From Pasteuria penetrans (GTDB lineage: Bacteria; Bacillota; Bacilli; Thermoactinomycetales; Thermoactinomycetaceae): a stretch of 64,000 nt of DNA. The position numbers and the translations under genes were made by a program. The stretch spans positions 434,001 through 498,000 of the forward strand of contig NZ_UZAC03000001.1 of NCBI RefSeq assembly GCF_900538055.1, in the 5' to 3' direction. The notes under the pieces were generated by a model. It saw only the letters and a list, made by a program, of their open reading frames with translations. It did no database searches and was not told the DNA's origin. Positions 400 to 24,020 of the stretch are shown here, in pieces (within the stretch, counting starts at the first letter, position 1; each line of letters begins with the position of its first letter).

Positions 400-1604
400 C
401 TGAACGAGGGCGCATCGAAATGGACCTTTTATGTCGAAATCGGAGGGTAAGGATCCCTACCCTTGGATCGAGGCTAGGGGGGAAGACCTATGCCCTAGCG
501 GCATGCGGTGTACGGGCGGGATGTGTGTCAAGAAGTCGTTCAAGAGATGAAGGTTGCTCGGCCCTTCGTAACCGGCTGATAGGTAGCAGGTTACAAACCG
601 CCTAGTGCTGCTGGTGTGGAAACACCCCGGTGGTGAGCGATCTAGGAAAAGGCAGGGCATGACCCTGTCAGGTGGGAATCGGGGAGATCAGCGAAAGCGA
701 ACCAGCCGAAGACGCATCGAAAGGTATAGTCCATGTCAAAACCGATGTGGGTCCCGAACGTCGGGATGAACCGTGGGGGATGACCTATCTACTGCCCCGG
801 TGGCATGCGGTGTTCAGGCGGGATGAACCCGATTTAGGCTCTTGATCGGAACTTGAGAGATCGTCGTACGGCGTCTGGCTGTCGCCAGATGTATAAAGAC
901 CGAGGACAAACCGAGGTTCCGTGCACGAAGTCGGATCAGCTCATAGTAGTGAGGAAGCTTCTGTAATGGAAGTGGAGCGAAGGGGCTGACTCATCCTGCG
1001 GAGGACAGTTAGATGAGAACTTTAGCGGGAGATCCGCTGGAGGAGATCAAACGACAACTTTAGTGGAGATCCACTATAGGAGGTCACTGGAACCTCGGAG
1101 CAACATCCCCATAATCGAAGTAGGACCTAAAGGGTCTGAAGATTGGGATGGGATGAGAAGAGCCGGATGATGCGAGAGTATCATGTCCGGATCTGTGAGG
1201 GACTCGGCTGAAATGCCGGGTCTACTCGACGAACTCAATCCAGGCTTTTTCCGTGCAACCGCTTGGGAAACCTGTCGTGTAGACGCCTAGCAGATGATCG
1301 TCGCCAGGCTGTAAAAGCCAGGGGATATCGAGGGGTCTTGCCATATTAGGATCGTACAGGTTTGTAGGTAGCTAGGGAGCTCCGCAATGGAAGTGGGGCA
1401 AAGGGGCCAGCTTTGTCGGACTGGTTCCCGGAAAGATCAAGTGGAGAACGGGAAATCATACCAGTCCTGCCCGTTTACACAACCATCATAATGGACACAC
1501 GTTGTGCACCGTTGATTTATGTGGAGATGGGAAGAGCCAGATATAACGCTGTTGAGTCCAGTTCTATGGGGGGCTTGGTATGAATACCACCAGGTCTATT
1601 CGAC
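400..1604 (+). mobile_element. Degenerate outer group II intron copy, split by an inner intron
   Basis: The bases before 523 (ending GCATGCGGTGTACGGGCGGGAT) and after 1230 (starting GAACTCAATCCAGGC) join into a sequence matching an internal part of the intron itself: the inner copy has GCATGCGGTGTTCAGGCGGG then ATGAACCCG at about 808-830. An older member of the same family was therefore invaded by a younger one. The outer copy continues to a recognisable but degraded domain V plus VI (about 1533-1604) ending CTATTCGAC, the counterpart of the intact CTACTCGAC end. Its 5' part is lost or diverged before about 400. No protein is encoded. Confidence 0.7.
523..1230 (+). mobile_element. Complete ORF-less group II intron, family B, copy 1
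   Basis: It starts GTGTGTCAAGAAG (the GUGYG 5' end of group II introns) and ends CTACTCGAC with the usual A-pyrimidine 3' end. A 34-nt domain V lies at 1160-1193: an AGC triad, a stem capped by GAGA, and a closing strand that restores the pairing. A domain VI hairpin follows, with an unpaired A seven bases from the end (likely branch point). At 708 bases with no RT gene it would need a maturase in trans. Two near-identical copies lie at 4620-5292 and, on the minus strand, 55848-56518. Confidence 0.85.
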
Positions 1605-1960
1605 GTCGTATGGTGCCCGTCGTTTGTCGACAGAGGTAAACAAAGACCGAGAATAAACTGGAGTTTCCATGCACACAGTTGGATCAATTCATAGTGGTGA
1701 CGAAGTCCCTGTAGTGGGGATGGGATGAAGGGGATTGAATGGTTTTCTGATTTTACGGTTTAAGTCCCCGTGAGGTCAGAAGTCATCGGACAGGGGTTGG
1801 ATCAGTGGATTTCACACTGGCCGTAAGCCAAGAATCTAAAAGCCAAGATGGCTTGGCTTGGCATGTTAGGGAGCTCTGGTTATCCAAGGCGGAGTTGGTA
1901 TGGATTTGGATGAAATAGCGGGCCTACTCCGTCCTCAACTCGTGGGGTGGATTGGATGGT
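1605..1960 (+). mobile_element. Third, strongly degraded group II intron segment
   Basis: Bases 1605-1760 align by eye to the interior of the family B intron, including a diverged stretch around TTCCATGCACACAGTTGGATC, TCATAGTGGTGACGAAG and GGGATGGGATGAAGGGG. It follows directly after the degraded 3' end at 1604, so three intron layers or tandem insertions are stacked here. The end is unclear; a degraded domain VI-like stretch stops near 1935-1950. Confidence 0.5.
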
Positions 1961-2334
1961 AAGGTGTCTTCTGTCTTTCATCCGTGATAGGTTCCCTATG
2001 GGACTCAACCAGAGTTTGGATAGATGGGGCATCCTTCTCTCATTTTCGTCTATGAGTACTGCTATCTAAAACTTTGTTCATTGATGTTGAGTAATAATAT
2101 TTATATAAGTAAAATATACATAATGAAATTTCCGGTATGCGCTTTTTATTTGAGAAAAAATGTGTCCCTCAGGTATAGTTTTGCGAGAGGGTTGGCTGAA
2201 GTGTCATTCCTACTGAACATAACCGAATTTTTTGAAATTGGTAGCGGGGTTCTTTGGCATAGGGTTCTATAAACCCTATTGCAAGGACGATGCCTTTTCC
2301 TTGTTGTTATCTGCTTCTAGTGGGTAGAGACACT

Positions 2335-2372
2335 AAAGGGAGAGCAGGCTTATAGCGCTCTGCTCTCCCTTT
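2335..2372. terminator. Perfect 13-bp inverted repeat, terminator-like
   Basis: AAAGGGAGAGCAG (2335-2347) pairs perfectly with CTGCTCTCCCTTT (2360-2372) across a 12-base loop. It lies 3' of the minus-strand secreted protein gene ending at 2418 and probably ends its transcript, although there is no long T run on either side. Confidence 0.6.
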
Positions 2373-2417
2373 GGGGTTATAAAGGTTACGGTTGGGGCGA
2401 TAGTGTGTTTACACACT

Positions 2418-2768
2418 TTAGGCGAATCGTTGGTAAACGTTTTCTGGTACAAAGTAAATGGAATTATTTATGTTTAGTTTATAGTGGTATTCTACTCTTT
2501 GGGTGTGGATGTTGAAGATGGAGACACGGTTTTGCCATTGAACGGGGAAGTTATTCACGTAATAGCTGACCTGCGTTGGTTGGTAGATAACCGGGTAGGG
2601 GAGTTGTTGGTAGCTACTGACACAATAGCTGTAGGGGGAGTAATCACAGTTAGAATAGGCTGTTGCTGTTATTCTGGATGCTGATGCGGGGGAGGAGGGG
2701 GAGAAGGCAGCGGCTGCTATCGTACCTAGGGCCATTGTGGAAGCGATGACTTTGTATGGGATCCTCAT
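2418..2768 (-). CDS. Small secreted protein with Sec signal peptide, unknown function
   Basis: I chose ATG at 2768 (116 residues) over the upstream GTG at 2786 because AAAGGGG sits seven bases before it. Residues 1-30 form a textbook signal peptide: basic N-terminus MRIPYK, a hydrophobic stretch with ALGTIAAAAF, and an ASA site. The mature part is rich in Tyr, Ser, Gln and Asn, with two Cys about eight residues apart and no recognisable domain. The signal region resembles that of the protein at 44074-44502 (ALGTxAxA then ASA), and both are small, aromatic/Asn/Gln-rich secreted proteins, suggesting a family, perhaps surface or spore-coat related (inference). A strong hairpin follows the stop. 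Confidence 0.65.
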   Translation of the reverse strand: MRIPYKVIASTMALGTIAAAAFSPSSPASASRITATAYSNCDYSPYSYCVSSYQQLPYPVIYQPTQVSYYVNNFPVQWQNRVSIFNIHTQRVEYHYKLNINNSIYFVPENVYQRFA

Positions 2769-3649
2769 TTGGAATGCCCCTTTCACTAATTTAATTTTTA
2801 TTTTTTTATGAGCATGGATTCTATACTCACTTTTGAATGATTGCAGTTGATTCCTATTGGGAACGAGTCATATAAGTTGTCGGGGGGATGATGGGTTTCT
2901 TTCTAAATTCTATTGACAATCATTCCTTATGTCCCATGGTACTTCTTTTGCAGTTGTAATGGTATAGACTGGGGATTAAAAATGGCTTACACTTTGATTT
3001 CTCTTCCCTTTCATATGTGTAAGTTTTCAATGAATACAGGGGACGGTGTGGTTTCGATTGCGTTTACATGTGTTTGGGAAGTTCTACAAAGGATGGTGGT
3101 TGTCCGGTTTTTCGGGGTAGGTCAATTTGAGAACGAGTCATATAGGTTGCCGGGAGGATGATGGGTTCCTTTCTAGATTCTATTGACAATCATTCCTTAT
3201 GTCCCATGGTACTTCTTTTGCAGTTGTAATGGTATAGACTGGGGATTAAAAATGGCTTACACTTTGATTTCTCTTCCCTTTCATATGTGTAAGTTTTCAA
3301 TGAATACAGGGGACGGTGTGGTTTCGATTGTGTGTACATATGTTTGGGAAGTTCTACAGAGGATGGTGGTTGTCCGGTTTTTCGGGGTAGGTCAATTTGA
3401 GAACGAGTCATATAGGTTGCCGGGAGGATGATGGGTTCCTTTCTAGATTCTATTGACAATCATTCCTTATGTCCCATGGTACTTCTTTTGCAGTTGTAAT
3501 GGTATAGACTGGGGATTAAAAATGGCTTACACTTTGATTTCTCTTCCCTTTCATATGTGTAAGTTTTCAATGAATACAGGGGATGGTGTGGTTTCGTGTG
3601 TCGTGTCGAGCTCTATGAGGGATGGGGGAGGGGACCCCCGAAACCGGCA

Positions 3650-5415
3650 GGTGGTAAGCAGGTTTAAGGTCCGAAGGGTGGAAATCCCGAAGCCAGACGG
3701 TGGGAAGAGACCCCTCAGAATACCAACAATAGGGGATAGGATCGCCCAAACGGTGGTTAAGAACCGACTCGAACCCCTCCTAGAGCCACGCTTTGTTCCT
3801 GATTCCTATGGATGTTGCCCGGGGAAATCTGCCCTGGATGCAGTAGATAGGAATAGGAGTCGTTGCTGGAAGTATGCCTGGGGGATTGATCTTGACATAA
3901 AGGGATTCTTTGACAATATACCGCATGATTTGCTTATCATAGCATTGAAACATTGCGGCATTGACAAAAGGATGCTCCGTTATTGTGAGAGATGGCTCAA
4001 AGCCTCGGTACAACTACCCGATGGAACGATCGAAGAAAGGACCAAGGGCACACCACAAGGGGGTGTCGTGTCATAAGCCCCCCTACTGGCCAATTTGTTT
4101 TTGCACTATGCCCTAGATCGATGGTTGCAGGAACATCATCCAGATATTGAGTTCGAAAGATATGTGGATGACGTGATCCTTCATTGTGAAAATCAAGCCC
4201 AAGCCGAAAATCTTCTAGGGGAACTGCAACAGAGAATGGCTCAGTGTGGTCTGGAACTACATCCGACAAAAACCAAAATCTTTTATTGCAAGGATGGCTG
4301 GAAGACAGGGAAGTACAAAGGAATATCCTTTGACTTCCTAGGGTTTACGTTTTGCCCGCGTCAGGCTGTAACCCGTGTAGGGAGAAGAAGGTTTTTAGGA
4401 TTCAATCCAGCTGTCAGCCGGAAATCGAAGAAGAAGATAGCTAAGCGGGGGAAGGAAATAAGAAAACACATGGAGCCAGGTATGGAACTGCATGAGGTGG
4501 CGGAAAGGTCCAATCCCATATTGAGGGGCTGGGTGAATTACTATGGGGTCTTTGATCCCTCACATCTGAGGAAATCCCTACTACGGAGTTTCGATGACAA
4601 TGTTTTGGCCTGGTGGGCCGTGTGTCAAGAAGTCGTTCAAGAGATGAAGGTTGCTCGGCCCTTCGTAACCGGCTGATAGGTAGCAGGTTACAAACTGCCT
4701 AGTGCTGCTGGGGTAAAAAAGTGCCCTGGTTGTGAGCGATCTAGGAAAAGGCAGGGCATGACCCTGTCAGGTGGGAATCGGGGGGATCAGCGAAAGCGAA
4801 CCGTTCGAAGACGCATCGAAAAGGCTAGTTCATGTCAAAACCGATGTGGGGTCCTAACGTCGGGATGAGCCGTGGGGGATGACCTATCTACTGCCCTGGT
4901 GGCATGCGGTGTATAGGCGGGATGAACCCGATGTAGGCTCTTGATCGGAACTTGAGAGATCGTCGTACGGCGGCGTCTGGCTGCCGCCAGATGGAAAAGA
5001 CCGAGGACAACTGAGGTTCCGTGCACGAAGTCGGATTAGCTCATAGTAGTGAGGAAGCTTCTGTAATGGAAGTGGAGCGAAGGGGCTGACTCATCCTGAG
5101 GAGGACAGTAAAATGAAACTCTAGTGGGAGATCCGCTAGAGGAGATCACTGGAACCTCGGAGCAACATTCCTATAATCGAAGTAGGACCTAAAGGGTCTG
5201 AAGATTGGGATGGGATGAGAAGAGCTGGATGATGCGAGAGTATCACGTCCAGTTCTGTGAGGGACTCGGCTGAAATGCCGGGTCTACTCGACAGAAAGAA
5301 GTATAAGAAGCTCGGTAGCATGCGAAAGGCTCGTAGGTGGATCCAGTATATACGAGGAAAGTACGGGGACCTGTTTGCGCACTGGGACACATTAGACGCT
5401 AAGATGGGGCAATAA
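3650..5415 (+). pseudogene. ltrA: Group II intron reverse transcriptase/maturase, broken and intron-interrupted
   Basis: Exon 1 (about 3650-4619) has RT landmarks in order: RRVEIPKPDGGKRPLRIPT, a palm strand with DLDIKGFFDNIPH, GTPQGGVVS, the catalytic FERYVDDVILHC (YVDD), HPTKTKI and FLGFTF, then maturase domain X with ILRGWVNYYGVF. After codon GCC (4617-4619) the family B intron 4620-5292 intervenes. Exon 2 (5293-5415) continues in frame with RKKYKKLGSMRKARRW and ends LFAHWDTLDAKMGQ, the usual C-terminal helix of these proteins. Defects: an in-frame TAA after GGVVS, apparently from a six-base insertion TAAGCC between S and P of the usual SPLLANL; and loss of roughly the first 60-70 residues. 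A non-functional remnant unless the stop is bypassed. Confidence 0.85.
4620..5292 (+). mobile_element. Complete ORF-less group II intron, family B, copy 2, inside the maturase gene
   Basis: It starts GTGTGTCAAGAAG directly after codon GCC of the maturase and ends CTACTCGAC at 5292. Removing its 673 bases joins ...TGGTGGGCC to AGAAAGAAGTAT in frame, rebuilding the conserved WA-RKKYKKL junction. Domain V (5222-5255) is a 34-nt hairpin differing from copy 1 by paired changes (GAGCC with GG becomes GAGCT with AG in the opposite strand), i.e. a compensatory change that keeps the helix. No RT is encoded. Confidence 0.9.
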
Positions 5416-5556
5416 GAGCCACATAATGCGAGAGTATTACGTGTGGTTCTGTGAGAGGGTTGGCTGAGATGCCAGCCCTACTCGACGATTGCGTGTACAT
5501 GTGTTTGGGAGGTTCTACAGAGGATGGTGGTTGTCCGGTTTTTCGGGGTAGGGTCA

Positions 5557-5725
5557 ATAGGTGTTTCAAACTGTCTAGTGTTGCTAGGGTAAAGGGACCC
5601 TGATGATGAGCGGCTAGGAAAGGGCAGGGCTTGATTCTGTTGGATAGGAATCGAGGAGATCAGCACGAGCGGACCGTTGATGATGCATTGGGAATCATAG
5701 TAGGCTATGTCAAAACCGATGTCTA
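5557..5725 (+). mobile_element. 5' fragment of a family B-like group II intron
   Basis: This stretch aligns by eye to family B positions about 60-240: GGTGTTTCAAACTG-TCTAGTG, GCTAGGAAAGGGCAGGG and ATGTCAAAACCGATG match GGTTACAAACTGCCTAGTG, CTAGGAAAAGGCAGGG and ATGTCAAAACCGATG. It begins exactly where the third 270-bp repeat ends and stops without domains V-VI. Confidence 0.7.
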
Positions 5726-5863
5726 CACACAATACAATTGCATTCCCAATTTGGTATTGGGGCTCTGGAGGGTCTCTTTTTTGTCCCCCCTGTGCCATTT
5801 GCGGACCCGTCTCTGGATCTATTTTTTTAATTATTTAATTATAATATAAAATATAATAGGGTA

Positions 5864-6247
5864 ATGGATGAACGTTTTAGAAAACAAAACCGGGGTGATC
5901 GGCAGCGGGGGCAACAGCATTTACAACAGTTGGCATGGCAGTGGGGACTTACACCTCAAGAGCAGGAGAAGATAGATAATAATTCGGATTGGGGGGGTGT
6001 TCAAAAGCGCGGACAGGTACGTCGTCCGTGGTTGCCCCTTTTTGATGAATATGAGTACGGACACGGGGTTTCGTGTCCTATGAGGGATGGGGAGAGTCTT
6101 TTGAAACGGCAGGTGGTAGCAGGTTTCAAACCGCTTGGAGCTGTTGTTGTAAAGAGTAATGGTGGGGAGCGTCTCTGGGGAAAAGCAGGACGAAAGATGC
6201 AGTCGATGTTGAAACAAGGGGGATATCGGAACCTGCTTTTGGATTAA
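5864..6247 (+). CDS. Small ORF of unknown function, probably disrupted by intron sequence
   Basis: An open frame of 127 codons begins ATGGATGAACGTTTTAG. The first 65 residues are polar, rich in Gln and Arg (QRGQQHLQQLAWQWGLTPQ), and could be the start of a real gene. From about 6068 the DNA (GTTTCGTGTCCTATGAGGGATGGG, then GGCAGGTGGTAGCAGGTTT) matches the 5' end of the family A intron and the family B interior, so the rest of the frame is probably intron RNA read by chance. I recognise no domain; likely a truncated gene invaded by an intron. Confidence 0.3.
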   Translation: MDERFRKQNRGDRQRGQQHLQQLAWQWGLTPQEQEKIDNNSDWGGVQKRGQVRRPWLPLFDEYEYGHGVSCPMRDGESLLKRQVVAGFKPLGAVVVKSNGGERLWGKAGRKMQSMLKQGGYRNLLLD

Positions 6248-20984: not shown

Positions 20985-23149
20985 ATGCCCAATACTAAGG
21001 TTATAGCCATTGCTAATCAAAAGGGGGGTGTGGGCGTGCGCCCGTGAGGTGCAGTGATTAGCCCCTAGAGGGGCCTAGGATTGGGGAGAAATTCTAGCAA
21101 CCGACGGCTTACCGATGACGGAAACGTCCTACGGGAAAAAAGCATGCCGAAAAAACAATTGCCCAGTGAACTGATTTCTGCAATTGTTATGGTTGTAGAT
21201 GGTAGGGTTAAGATAATATGTTCTGAAGTCGAGCTTCTTAGGCCCGGATCCCCCGGGGTATGTTCTGTAAGTAGGCATACGGATACCCCTGCAAGGCTCC
21301 TTGTCCACGGGCCCTTGCACTCCTCGTGGTGTCCCATCGCGTGCCTATAGGTACGTTGATAAAGGAGTGAATGACGACCTAATCCATCGTGAGATCATTG
21401 CATACAGAACGGGGACAACCTACGATGGATCCAGGAATCTCTTGGATTTATTAAGGTTGCGGACTTCCTATAGTAGTCAGAGCTAGGGAAAACCTAGTAC
21501 GGGGCGAAGGGGAAGAGGGGGGATTGGTGGATGGATATAGACCGATCACTGCGTAGAGGCGGTGGCCTGAGGGTATATTTTTCATCAATTCTCCTGGAGA
21601 GCCGTATACGCTGAAAGGGTGCGACACGTTTCTGGGGAAGTCCTATTATGGGCGAATACAGACCATCCTGTAATCGGGGAAATGATACGTAGTTTTTGAA
21701 GCAGGGTGAGAACTGAACCGGTGAGTGGGACGGGGAAATGATCTTCCTGGACCCCCCTAATACTCCTGCATGCATAGGGATAACATGTGGTGAAATTATC
21801 TCGTGTATGAAGCCAGGTGAAGGCGGCTGAAAACGACCATGGCTGGTCTTTCTGTGGTAGTGGTTGTTGATAGGCCGGGGGGCCGATAGGATACCTAAGA
21901 TGAGTATGTTGCTTGGTAAGCAACTGACAAAGAAATGAAGAAAAGGATCCAGAACATAATCAATCCGAAAGGATTGGGCTTAGATTATCTATTCTGAGAG
22001 GGGTTACTGCCGAGTACTTATCCTTTCGGGGAAAGGTGGGGGCACGGGGAATTCCGTGTTAGGACCAATGGATTCAGAATTTCCATCTAAGGGTATAAAG
22101 GAAGGCTAGCTGGTTCGGAACGTGGAAAGCAGGGAACCTTTCGGGCCCCTTATGAGGGGATCCCAACGTTCACCAGCGGAAAGGGTACTTGGTGACAAGT
22201 TTTATCACCTGTGAAAGCGGGGTCATAGTACCATTAGGATCATAGAGATCGAGGGATGGACCCCAGTCCAGATAGGAGTTGGTTCTGGAGGGAACGCCGT
22301 ATGAAGAGAAATTTTCATGTACGGTGTGGGGCGGGGGAAAAGATGGAGGGAACGCCGAAATCTTACCTATCGCCATCGTATGTACGGTTCGGAGTGGGGG
22401 CTACGGTTTTATGAGATGGCCTACCCTACAAGACCACGACATCTGTTAATCTTGCGGCTGGTTTGGCACTTCTTGGCTGTAAGGTTCTCCTCGTTGATAT
22501 TGATCCACAGGGGAATACAACGAGTGGATTGGGATGTGATAAGTCCTCAATTCAGCGTTGTATCTATAATGTACTGATTCATGAGGCCCCTTTGGAAACG
22601 GTGGTGTTCAAAACACATGTGGATAATCTTTTTCTGTTGCCAGCTACTCTGCAGTTGGCAGGTGTGGAAATTGAATTGGCCCAGGCCATTTCCCGTGAAT
22701 TGCGTCTACAGAGAGCCTTGCAGGTATTGGACCCATCATTTGAATTTGTTATTATCGACTGTCCTCCCTCCCTTGGGATTATTACACTGAATGCCCTCAC
22801 GGCTTCCCATTCTGTTCTAATACCCATTCAGTGTGAGTTTTATGCCCTGGAGGGTTTAGGACAGTTGTTGCATACAGTTCGTATTGTACAGCAACATCTA
22901 AATAAGTTTCTCGCCATTGAGGGTGTTCTGCTGACGATGTTTGATGCCCGTACGAATCTATCCACACAGGTGGCTGGTGAGGTTCGGAATCACTTTGTTG
23001 ATAAGGTATATACAACAGTAATTCCTCGCAATATTCGTCTTTCGGAAGCACCTAGTCATGGTCAATCTGTTTTGCAATATGATGCGAAATCACGTGGCGC
23101 AGAGTGCTATCGTGAGTTGGCCAGGGAGGTAGTGAGGAATAATGGATAA
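20985..23149 (+). CDS. parA: ParA (Soj) chromosome-partitioning ATPase, split by a group II twintron
   Basis: Exon 1 (20985-21035, ATG after a GGAGGGGGGAG ribosome site) encodes MPNTKVIAIANQKGGVG. Exon 2 (22430-23149) resumes KTTTSVNLAAGLALLGCK, so the intron lies inside the Walker A motif KGGVGKTTT. The joined protein is 256 residues, normal for Soj. Exon 2 also has the switch strand LLVDIDPQGNTTSGLG and Walker B region FVIIDCPPSLGIITLNAL, and no stops, which suggests selection on the spliced product. ParA is a DNA-binding ATPase that works with ParB-parS to segregate and organise the origin region. parB overlaps its stop by 8 bases. Without splicing, translation stops three codons into the intron; an internal start in exon 2 would give a protein without the P-loop. 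Confidence 0.92.
21036..22429 (+). mobile_element. Outer group II intron in parA, ORF-less, domain V interrupted
   Basis: It starts GTGCGCCCGTGAGG and ends CTACCCTAC; both ends are fixed by the ParA reading frame. Its domain V is in two parts: 21599-21618 and 22377-22390, which together make exactly 34 nt: GAGCCGTATACGCT, GAAA loop, and a closing strand ending GTACGGTTC. Domain VI (about 22396-22426) pairs GGGGGCTA with TGGCC-TA-CCC, leaving a bulged A at 22423, seven bases from the 3' end. A possible EBS1 is GTCCAC at 21303-21308, complementary to GTGGGC at the 5' exon end. Without the inner intron it is 636 bases and has no maturase gene. Confidence 0.88.
21619..22376 (+). mobile_element. 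Inner group II intron nested in domain V of the parA intron
   Basis: It begins GTGCGACACG at 21619, in the apical loop region of the outer domain V, and ends CGCCAT at 22376. Its own domain V is at 22294-22327: 34 nt with CGC in place of AGC as triad, a GAGAAAT cap and a closing GTACGGTGT strand. Domain VI follows, with GGCG (about 22331) pairing CGCC at the end and an unpaired A at 22369, eight bases from the 3' end. At 758 bases it has no ORF. CCTTTC (22022-22027) is complementary to GAAAGG at the 5' exon end and could be EBS1. The 3' boundary was chosen because it alone restores a 34-nt outer domain V. Confidence 0.82.
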
Positions 23150-24020
23150 AGGAAAAAATAAAAAAAGACAGTCTGCAGCATTGGGGAGGGGTTTGGATTC
23201 GTTATTGCCCAGTGAGGGGGAGAAAATTTTTTCAGTAGCCGTTGCAAATTTATGTCCTAATCCTTATCAACCGCGGACCCATTTTGATGAAGGACAGTTG
23301 GTGGAATTAGCAGAATCCATCCGAAAACATGGTATCCTCCAGCCATTGATTGTGCGTAAAAAATCTGTGGGTTATGAAATTGTAGCAGGGGAGCGTCGTT
23401 TCCGGGCAGCTAAAATGGCGGGTCTCGAAACGGTACCTGCAGTGGTAAGAATCTTGCATGAAGAGCAAATGATGGAAATAGCACTTATTGAGAATGTGCA
23501 GCGTGCCGATCTCAATCCAATAGAGGTAGCTCATGGTTATAGACTTTTAATGGAGAATTGTGGTTTGAAACAGGAAGAATTGGCTGAACGCACCGGTATG
23601 AGTCGTTCCCATGTGGCTAATACACTCCGTTTGCTTCAACTTCCAAAGGAAGTTCAGGGATATGTTTCCTCGGGTTCCCTGACTATGGGACACGCCAGGG
23701 CTATTCTGTCTGTAAGGGGAGAGGAGAAGCAGAGGGTTCTGGCCGAACGGGTGATGGACAAGGGAATTAGTGTTCGACAGCTAGAGAGTTTGATTCAGGG
23801 TCAGGTAGCTGGTGACCAGAGAACAGAAGGGGTTTTGGAAGAAAAATCTCCCCCCCTTCAGCTATCCTCCTATGAAAATTTTTTTCAAGATCTATGGGGG
23901 ATACCGGTTCAACTGCGCTATAAGAAGACGAAAAAGAAAACAGGGGGGATTGATATTGTTTATCATTCGAAAGAGGAAATAGATAGAATTGTCGAGGATT
24001 TGAAGAAGAAATTGAGTTGA
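23142..24020 (+). CDS. parB: ParB (Spo0J) chromosome-partitioning protein
   Basis: 292 residues, normal length. The N-terminal CTP-binding domain has PYQPRTHFDEGQL, GILQPLIVRK, the GERRFRAAKMAGL box (about residues 82-94) and ENVQRADLNPIE. The central helix-turn-helix, GLKQEELAERTGMSRSHVAN (about 141-160), reads parS. The C-terminal ~45 residues form the dimer domain, preceded by a variable linker. ParB loads at parS, spreads as a CTP-dependent clamp and recruits SMC; with ParA it separates sister origins. The ATG overlaps the end of parA by 8 bases, implying translational coupling. The matching parS palindromes lie upstream of parA. Confidence 0.97.
   Translation: MDKGKNKKRQSAALGRGLDSLLPSEGEKIFSVAVANLCPNPYQPRTHFDEGQLVELAESIRKHGILQPLIVRKKSVGYEIVAGERRFRAAKMAGLETVPAVVRILHEEQMMEIALIENVQRADLNPIEVAHGYRLLMENCGLKQEELAERTGMSRSHVANTLRLLQLPKEVQGYVSSGSLTMGHARAILSVRGEEKQRVLAERVMDKGISVRQLESLIQGQVAGDQRTEGVLEEKSPPLQLSSYENFFQDLWGIPVQLRYKKTKKKTGGIDIVYHSKEEIDRIVEDLKKKLS

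Follow-up and report, generated by a model that had tools for sequence, protein, structure and literature searches.

A putative group II twintron splitting the Walker A codons of chromosomal parA in Pasteuria penetrans

The chromosomal parA gene of Pasteuria penetrans is interrupted within the codons of its Walker A motif. In the window, by which we mean the whole analysed stretch of 64,000 nucleotides (NZ_UZAC03000001.1, positions 434,001 to 498,000), exon 1 (MPNTKVIAIANQKGGVG) occupies 20985-21035 and ends with AIANQKGGVG at 21035. Exon 2 (22430-23149) starts with AAGACCACG for KTTT at 22430, reads KTTTSVNL onwards and is open across 239 codons to the stop; it matched Pfam AAA_31 from profile position 15. 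Like all parts of the parA-parB locus described here it lies on the plus strand. Its end is overlapped by parB (23142-24020), which scored 121.6 bits for ParB_N and 126.5 bits for HTH_ParB in Pfam. In the unspliced reading the fourth intron codon of parA is a stop. Translation of the joined exons, 20985-21035 plus 22430-23149, gave a stop-free ParA of 256 residues with the Walker A sequence KGGVGKTTT restored. The original prediction, made from the sequence alone, had put an intron at 21036-22429 between KGGVG and KTTTS; the coordinates proved correct to the base and the joined reading frame intact. It had also named a second intact parA elsewhere, with this copy unexpressed, as a finding that would speak against it. 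In the own genome (assembly G000; 2.52 Mb, 4 contigs, 97% complete) no second ParA of the soj kind was found with exon 2 or with PF13614: exon 2 scored 519 bits at its own locus, the next match being 30% identical with an E-value of 5e-6, and PF13614 gave 192 bits for parA and 35-78 bits for three other matches.

Two introns in one gene

The whole insertion, 21036-22429, measures 1394 nt, begins with GTGCGCCCGTGA and ends with CCTACCCTAC. We assigned the outer intron to group IIA (LtrA type) by RNA features and homology because the copy in the window lacks an intron-encoded protein (IEP). Its 5' part (21036-21618) would, by the predicted domain limits, comprise domains I-IV and the 5' strand of domain V. 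An interrupted 34-nt domain V with a GAAA loop had been predicted, and indeed 21599-21618, which includes the loop, and the 3' strand at 22377-22390 folded together into such a structure with a 2-nt bulge at -17.7 kcal/mol; relatives carry the same domain unbroken. Alignment with relatives places domain VI and the 3' end (CTACCCTAC, common to most of them) at 22391-22429. With 21619-22376 left out, the first 620 and the last 160 bases of the intron aligned with the introns of eight relatives, barring their protein-coding part. The 5' part scored 93.9 bits with an RNA model, R1, that was itself built from an alignment including this part. In the own genome the only full-length match of the outer intron was the intron itself, one further match of 59 bases lying in an ssb intron, and a DNA search of plasmids with the 5' part returned no match.

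The inner intron (21619-22376, 758 nt) encodes no protein and is unrelated in class to the outer one. It belongs to RF02004 (D1D4-5), its core of domains I-IV (21708-21889) scoring 71.6 bits at a gathering score of 34.5, and its domains V and VI (22292-22376) gave 58.7 bits with RF00029, a match that ended exactly at the inner 3' splice site. It was the only RF02004 match in the own genome and its own only full-length match there. A match to RF01998 at 22181-22261 (E 0.19) was taken as chance. The covariance check on 21036-22429 that had been proposed with the prediction was positive for the inner intron and negative for the split outer domain V, which had no Rfam match even at E<=1. Relatives were used in its place: domain V was unbroken and scored 58-64 bits with RF00029 in all nine parA loci searched.

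Plasmid introns lend support to the borders of the inner intron. Its last ~90 bases matched 241 plasmid records (31 at 80-90% and 210 at 60-80% identity), 209 of them from Enterococcus. Among the ten matches listed, nine stopped at the last base of the inner intron and the tenth three bases earlier. Four plasmid regions were fetched, and the three that were scanned all contained RF02004 and RF00029 matches together with an annotated reverse transcriptase (RT) gene. Two of these introns (L192 and L193) have a GTGCG..CGTTCT start resembling that of the inner intron (GTGCGACACGTTTCT); no start was found in the third. These starts and the RF00029 match ending at 22376 bear out the claim that the inner intron has a GUGCG start and a domain V of its own. 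The likely inner EBS1, one of two candidate sites, is CCTTTC at 22022-22027, which can form six of six Watson-Crick pairs with the IBS1 GAAAGG in the loop of the outer domain V (21613-21618). The other candidate is a second CCTTTC at 22137. L192 has a perfect EBS1 of its own close to the former position, and no Watson-Crick EBS1 was found in L193.

The outer intron, its empty sites and its descent

At least 20 of the 42 order genomes, the own one included, carry a group II intron at this very base of parA, which leaves at least 19 of the 41 others. A scan for the 3' junction detected 17 of the 42, again with the own genome, and the intron was complete in all 16 others. Three further introns (G006, G024, G025), which have CCACCCTAC as their end, were detected in other ways. 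Among the 22 order genomes outside the at least 20, ten were inspected and all ten had an unbroken motif. A search of 20 relatives with exon 2 yielded parA loci in 19 (the exception was G013), and an insertion separated KGGVG from KTTT in nine of the 19. The Walker A motif was unbroken in 89 of 100 parA loci; the other 11 were the window's own, those of nine relatives and one from a record named as Paenactinomyces guangxiensis (L038). When the sample was widened to the phylum, 2 of 398 genomes matched, the own genome and G344, which belongs to another class and has the intron at the same site of its own distant parA.

The 19 complete introns of relatives are 1628-2570 nt long and all start with GTGCGTCCGTA; their 3' ends are CTACCCTAC, except for CCACCCTAC in G024 and G025. 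Domain V has the form GAGCC...GAAAGG...GGTTCGGAG and is unbroken in all 19 and in the truncated intron of G006, with GAAAAG for GAAAGG in G026. In comparison with these 20 relatives only the window's copy is interrupted, directly after GAAAGG. Because their domain V is unbroken, all 20 represent the empty site of the inner intron. This comparative evidence is the decisive part and makes it very likely that the nested arrangement is real, with a complete group II intron lodged in a second one and a separate domain V and separate borders for each. The predicted group II twintron within the Walker A codons of chromosomal parA is strongly supported, and an outer lineage common to about half of the sampled order makes the case both stronger and wider.

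Comparison of the introns also indicated how the outer intron would recognize its exons. Exon 1 closes with six bases of the form GTN GGN, two Walker A codons whose third position is free; in the window this IBS1 is GTGGGC (21030-21035). EBS1 lies at one aligned place in every parA intron, at 21303-21308 (GTCCAC) in the window, where it forms five Watson-Crick pairs and one G-U pair with IBS1. Over 20 introns 97 of 120 IBS1-EBS1 pairs were Watson-Crick, compared with a mean of 74.3 when exons were reassigned at random, uncorrected for relatedness; none of 10,000 shuffles reached 97. G009 was one base out of register in the alignment and was counted so; a shift by one base fits. This covariation means that the intron and the silent third bases in the codons of the ATP-binding motif vary in concert. 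The base preceding EBS1, delta (T at 21302 in the window), pairs with the first A of exon 2, and the δ-δ' pair was T-A in 19 of 20 parA introns, the window's included; G005 has an unpaired G. IBS2-EBS2 was nearly invariant without covariation (64 pairs, compared with 63.9 on average after shuffling), and in the window this pairing is weak.

Sister introns of the outer family were present in other genes, with exons joining in frame. Five relatives (L182, L183, L185, L186, L187) carry maturase-encoding introns at the same place in mutS, between FYEMF and F(D/E)DA; others were seen in nrdB (one relative), a cell-wall hydrolase gene (two) and an HU gene (one). Pfam matches to one exon each were MutS, Ribonuc_red_sm, Peptidase_M23 and Bac_DNA_binding, and by eye the setting of the hydrolase gene looks like part of a conjugative element. 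The HU gene of G012 (L180:968-5134) is apparently split by two maturase-encoding introns with a middle exon of ~17 codons. The δ-δ' pair is A-T in mutS (five) and in the hydrolase gene (two), T-A in HU (one) and G-C in nrdB and in ssb, a fit in 10 of 11 introns; the eleventh is the second HU-site intron with a misplaced 5' end. L181 pairs at five of six positions in this comparison. A delta base changing in step with the first base of exon 2 is a mark of group IIA.

All 19 complete introns of relatives encode proteins, of 353-582 residues. Of these IEPs 10 were scanned and 16 aligned. Intron_maturas2 was recognized in each of the 10 (eight over the cut-off), RVT_1 was over the cut-off in three of the 10, and MatK_N gave weak matches below the cut-off in three of the 10. 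The active-site motif YADD occurred in only one of the 16 aligned IEPs, that of G037, which also had a strong RVT_1 match; in G041 the motif is HVDD. The best solved relative of the IEPs is LtrA (PDB 5g2x, E 1e-75). dN/dS over the whole IEP was 0.19-0.33 in 8 of 12 close pairs, four having no finite value, and 0.02-0.08 for exon 2 where computed. Such low values imply that the IEPs are kept by purifying selection and are consistent with a role in splicing. Most of them have kept the maturase domain and lost the RT motif, as MatK has, and may be splicing-only maturases.

The presence of the intron changes at least eight times on the exon-2 tree (36 rows), and intron-bearing and intron-free genomes are mixed: G037 and the intron-free G010 are close sisters in one genus. 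This pattern, together with the intron in the distant parA of G344 and the YADD and RVT_1 match retained in G037, would be expected if the parA introns were not an inherited resident and had repeatedly and independently homed into a conserved DNA site. We grant such homing a substantial chance, somewhat below even. It is opposed by the 15 of 16 aligned IEPs without YADD, by the maturases of the family (f3) as a single clade, which was not rejected (p-AU 0.484), and by five close pairs in which synonymous divergence of IEP and exon 2 was alike, as under shared descent. A second IEP tree was built without six rows with long or near-identical branches (G011, G006, G035 and G032 from parA, and two HU-site rows). 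Long residence with losses and some homing fits the data best. In G036, four family IEP copies with 644-codon frames scored equally (on C1, C4, C12 and C19, one copy being in L188), which looks like recent mobility.

Likely splicing order and possible help in trans

The original prediction held that the outer core cannot fold until the inner intron has left and that splicing must be sequential. Both statements were too strong. Of the 14 pairs in the outer domain V, 12 bridge the inner intron and can form with it present, and a purely thermodynamic model has the basal ones forming with or without it. In the same model the inner intron lowered the probability of three distal spanning pairs from 0.87-1.00 to 0.40-0.51, and the two pairs that close the GAAA loop were lost. 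Because most pairs span the insertion and the loop-closing pairs are lost, removal of the inner intron first is likely and not compulsory. The spanning pairs would also allow the outer intron to splice as one unit of 1394 nt, with the inner intron kept as a large loop of domain V and no sequential step. We regard this as unlikely. The insertion lies two bases past the GAAA loop and so opens it, the distal helix is weakened in the model, and in group II introns the loop and the distal helix of domain V contact domain I. We thus prefer inner-first splicing.

The claim that neither intron carries a maturase was correct: neither parA intron encodes a protein, and most likely the maturase gene of the outer intron was lost in this genome. 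Help by a protein made elsewhere is probable for this reason. R1, which was built with both introns, recognized at least two places in the own genome (150 of 524 candidates scored), namely parA and a protein-less ssb intron of the same family with 703 nt (minus strand, L147:2076-2778 = G000:C1:261575-262277), whose EBS1 and delta pairs are perfect. The ssb exons correspond to positions 1-65 and 66-104 of Pfam SSB and join SCANY to LKKGSL. The interrupted ssb adjoins an S6-like ORF.

An apparently free-standing maturase gene with a degenerate RT is located at 1.78 Mb (minus strand, L176:2229-3653 = G000:C1:1778728-1780152). Its product, 475 residues from the likely start, scored 241 bits to the parA maturases, compared with at most 76 bits for other RTs of the own genome. 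It has GDEW in place of YADD, 51 bits for Intron_maturas2 and RVT_1 below the cut-off. In 6.5 kb around the gene there was no match to domain V (E<=0.1) or to a 5' intron end (E<=1). This protein may serve both the outer parA intron and the ssb intron in trans, a reading that has to be tempered because in the IEP trees it branches between parA-site and other-site maturases and does not join the parA group. The genome might harbor an organelle-like system, in which immobile, protein-less introns in core genes, with a nested pair in parA and a single one in ssb, would depend for their removal on one free-standing, RT-degenerate maturase in trans. The relatives offer a stepwise series, from IEPs with an intact RT motif via RT-degenerate IEPs in cis to no IEP, of which this system would be the end. 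We put it forward tentatively, as a proposal with slightly more risk of being wrong than right.

The own genome bears an extreme load of group II introns: when 150 of 350 candidates were scored, RF00029 gave at least 117 matches at E<=0.001 across 2.5 Mb. In one stretch of <7 kb (L148:2375-9164 = G000:C1:1851374-1858163) nearly identical pieces of group II introns are arrayed in tandem, with ten domain Vs, seven cores of the RF01999 type and repeated spacings of 87 and 667 bases. A smaller cluster is present at 549-6203 of the window. Several RT genes of the genome are broken or short.

One might suspect that parA is decaying, that the introns no longer splice and that ParA is not made. A second intron inserted into a locus without a maturase, the broken or short RT genes and the long branch of the window's ParA in the exon-2 tree (0.9), which is compatible with relaxed constraint, could be read in this way. 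Decay is nevertheless quite improbable, as exon 2 is open over its 239 codons, EBS1 matches the local codons with five Watson-Crick pairs and one G-U pair, both domain Vs fold, and the maturase-less sister intron in ssb retains perfect EBS1 and delta pairs. A false join of two separate introns in the assembly, for which the many RF00029 matches and some identical, hard-to-assemble tandem copies might be cited, can practically be discounted, since inner and outer intron are both single-copy and 20 relatives possess in one piece the domain V inside which the inner borders exactly lie.

Taken together, we hold with high confidence to nested introns as the explanation of the parA locus as a whole. 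On the evidence of sequence comparison, a group IIA intron of the LtrA type would have settled in the Walker A codons of parA in an ancestor of many members of the order or in a donor to them. An ORF-less intron of the RF02004 class then presumably inserted next to the GAAA loop in domain V of the outer intron, at a sequence matched by the likely inner EBS1. In the transcript the inner intron would most likely be excised first, restoring the outer domain V. The outer EBS1 would then pair with the Walker A codons, and the outer intron would remove itself and join KGGVG to KTTTS to give ParA. The reactions are probably aided by a protein made elsewhere, with the RT-degenerate maturase at 1.78 Mb as the leading candidate in the case of the outer intron.

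Comparison with known systems

Copertino and Hallick reportedly described the psbF twintron of the Euglena chloroplast in 1991. The parA locus resembles the chloroplast twintrons of Euglena, as portrayed in a 2015 review, in that a needed gene carries one intron inside another, the inner one often being expected to leave first; those are found in an organelle with many degenerate introns and ours on a bacterial chromosome (PMC4424553). A bacterial counterpart in a protein-coding gene is the group II twintron of Trichodesmium erythraeum, for which sequential splicing was shown in vivo (PMC4649490). Its inner intron lies in domain 1, IEPs are encoded by the outer as well as the inner intron (5.4 kb) and the host gene specifies a conserved protein of unknown role, whereas in parA the inner intron sits in domain V and no proteins are encoded (PMC4649490). 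Thermosynechococcus elongatus likewise has an ORF-less intron within another group II intron and IEPs able to act in trans, but its inner intron lies in the domain IV ORF and its inner copies are identical and mobile (PMC2882425). A literature search, judged by the titles listed and not covering subscription papers, found no report of a parA intron or of group II introns in Thermoactinomyces, and the word intron is absent from the genome paper of P. ramosa.

With LtrA-type group IIA introns the outer intron shares exon recognition by EBS1 and delta, and the IEPs of its relatives are nearest to LtrA; it differs in that the IEPs at the parA site mostly lack YADD and the window's copy lacks an IEP altogether. 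The relatives' IEPs are also like MatK of plant trnK introns in having lost RT motifs and kept the maturase domain; they are, however, bacterial and form a separate series of degeneration that includes the YADD-bearing IEP of G037 (PMC4424553). The same review states that most bacterial group II introns, the known bacterial twintrons too, lie outside housekeeping genes, that bacteria, in contrast to organelles, rarely have degenerate or ORF-less forms, which probably do not last long there, and that a systematic survey provided one bacterial example of a degenerate IEP (PMC4424553). Unlike this bacterial pattern, the nested pair lies in the middle of the motif with which an ATPase for chromosome partition binds its nucleotide, and its outer lineage is widespread, with a protein that mostly lacks the RT motif and yet is under purifying selection. 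It thus offers a bacterial and partly cultured system, a Paenactinomyces strain having the outer type, for the putative steps from mobile introns to host-dependent splicing.
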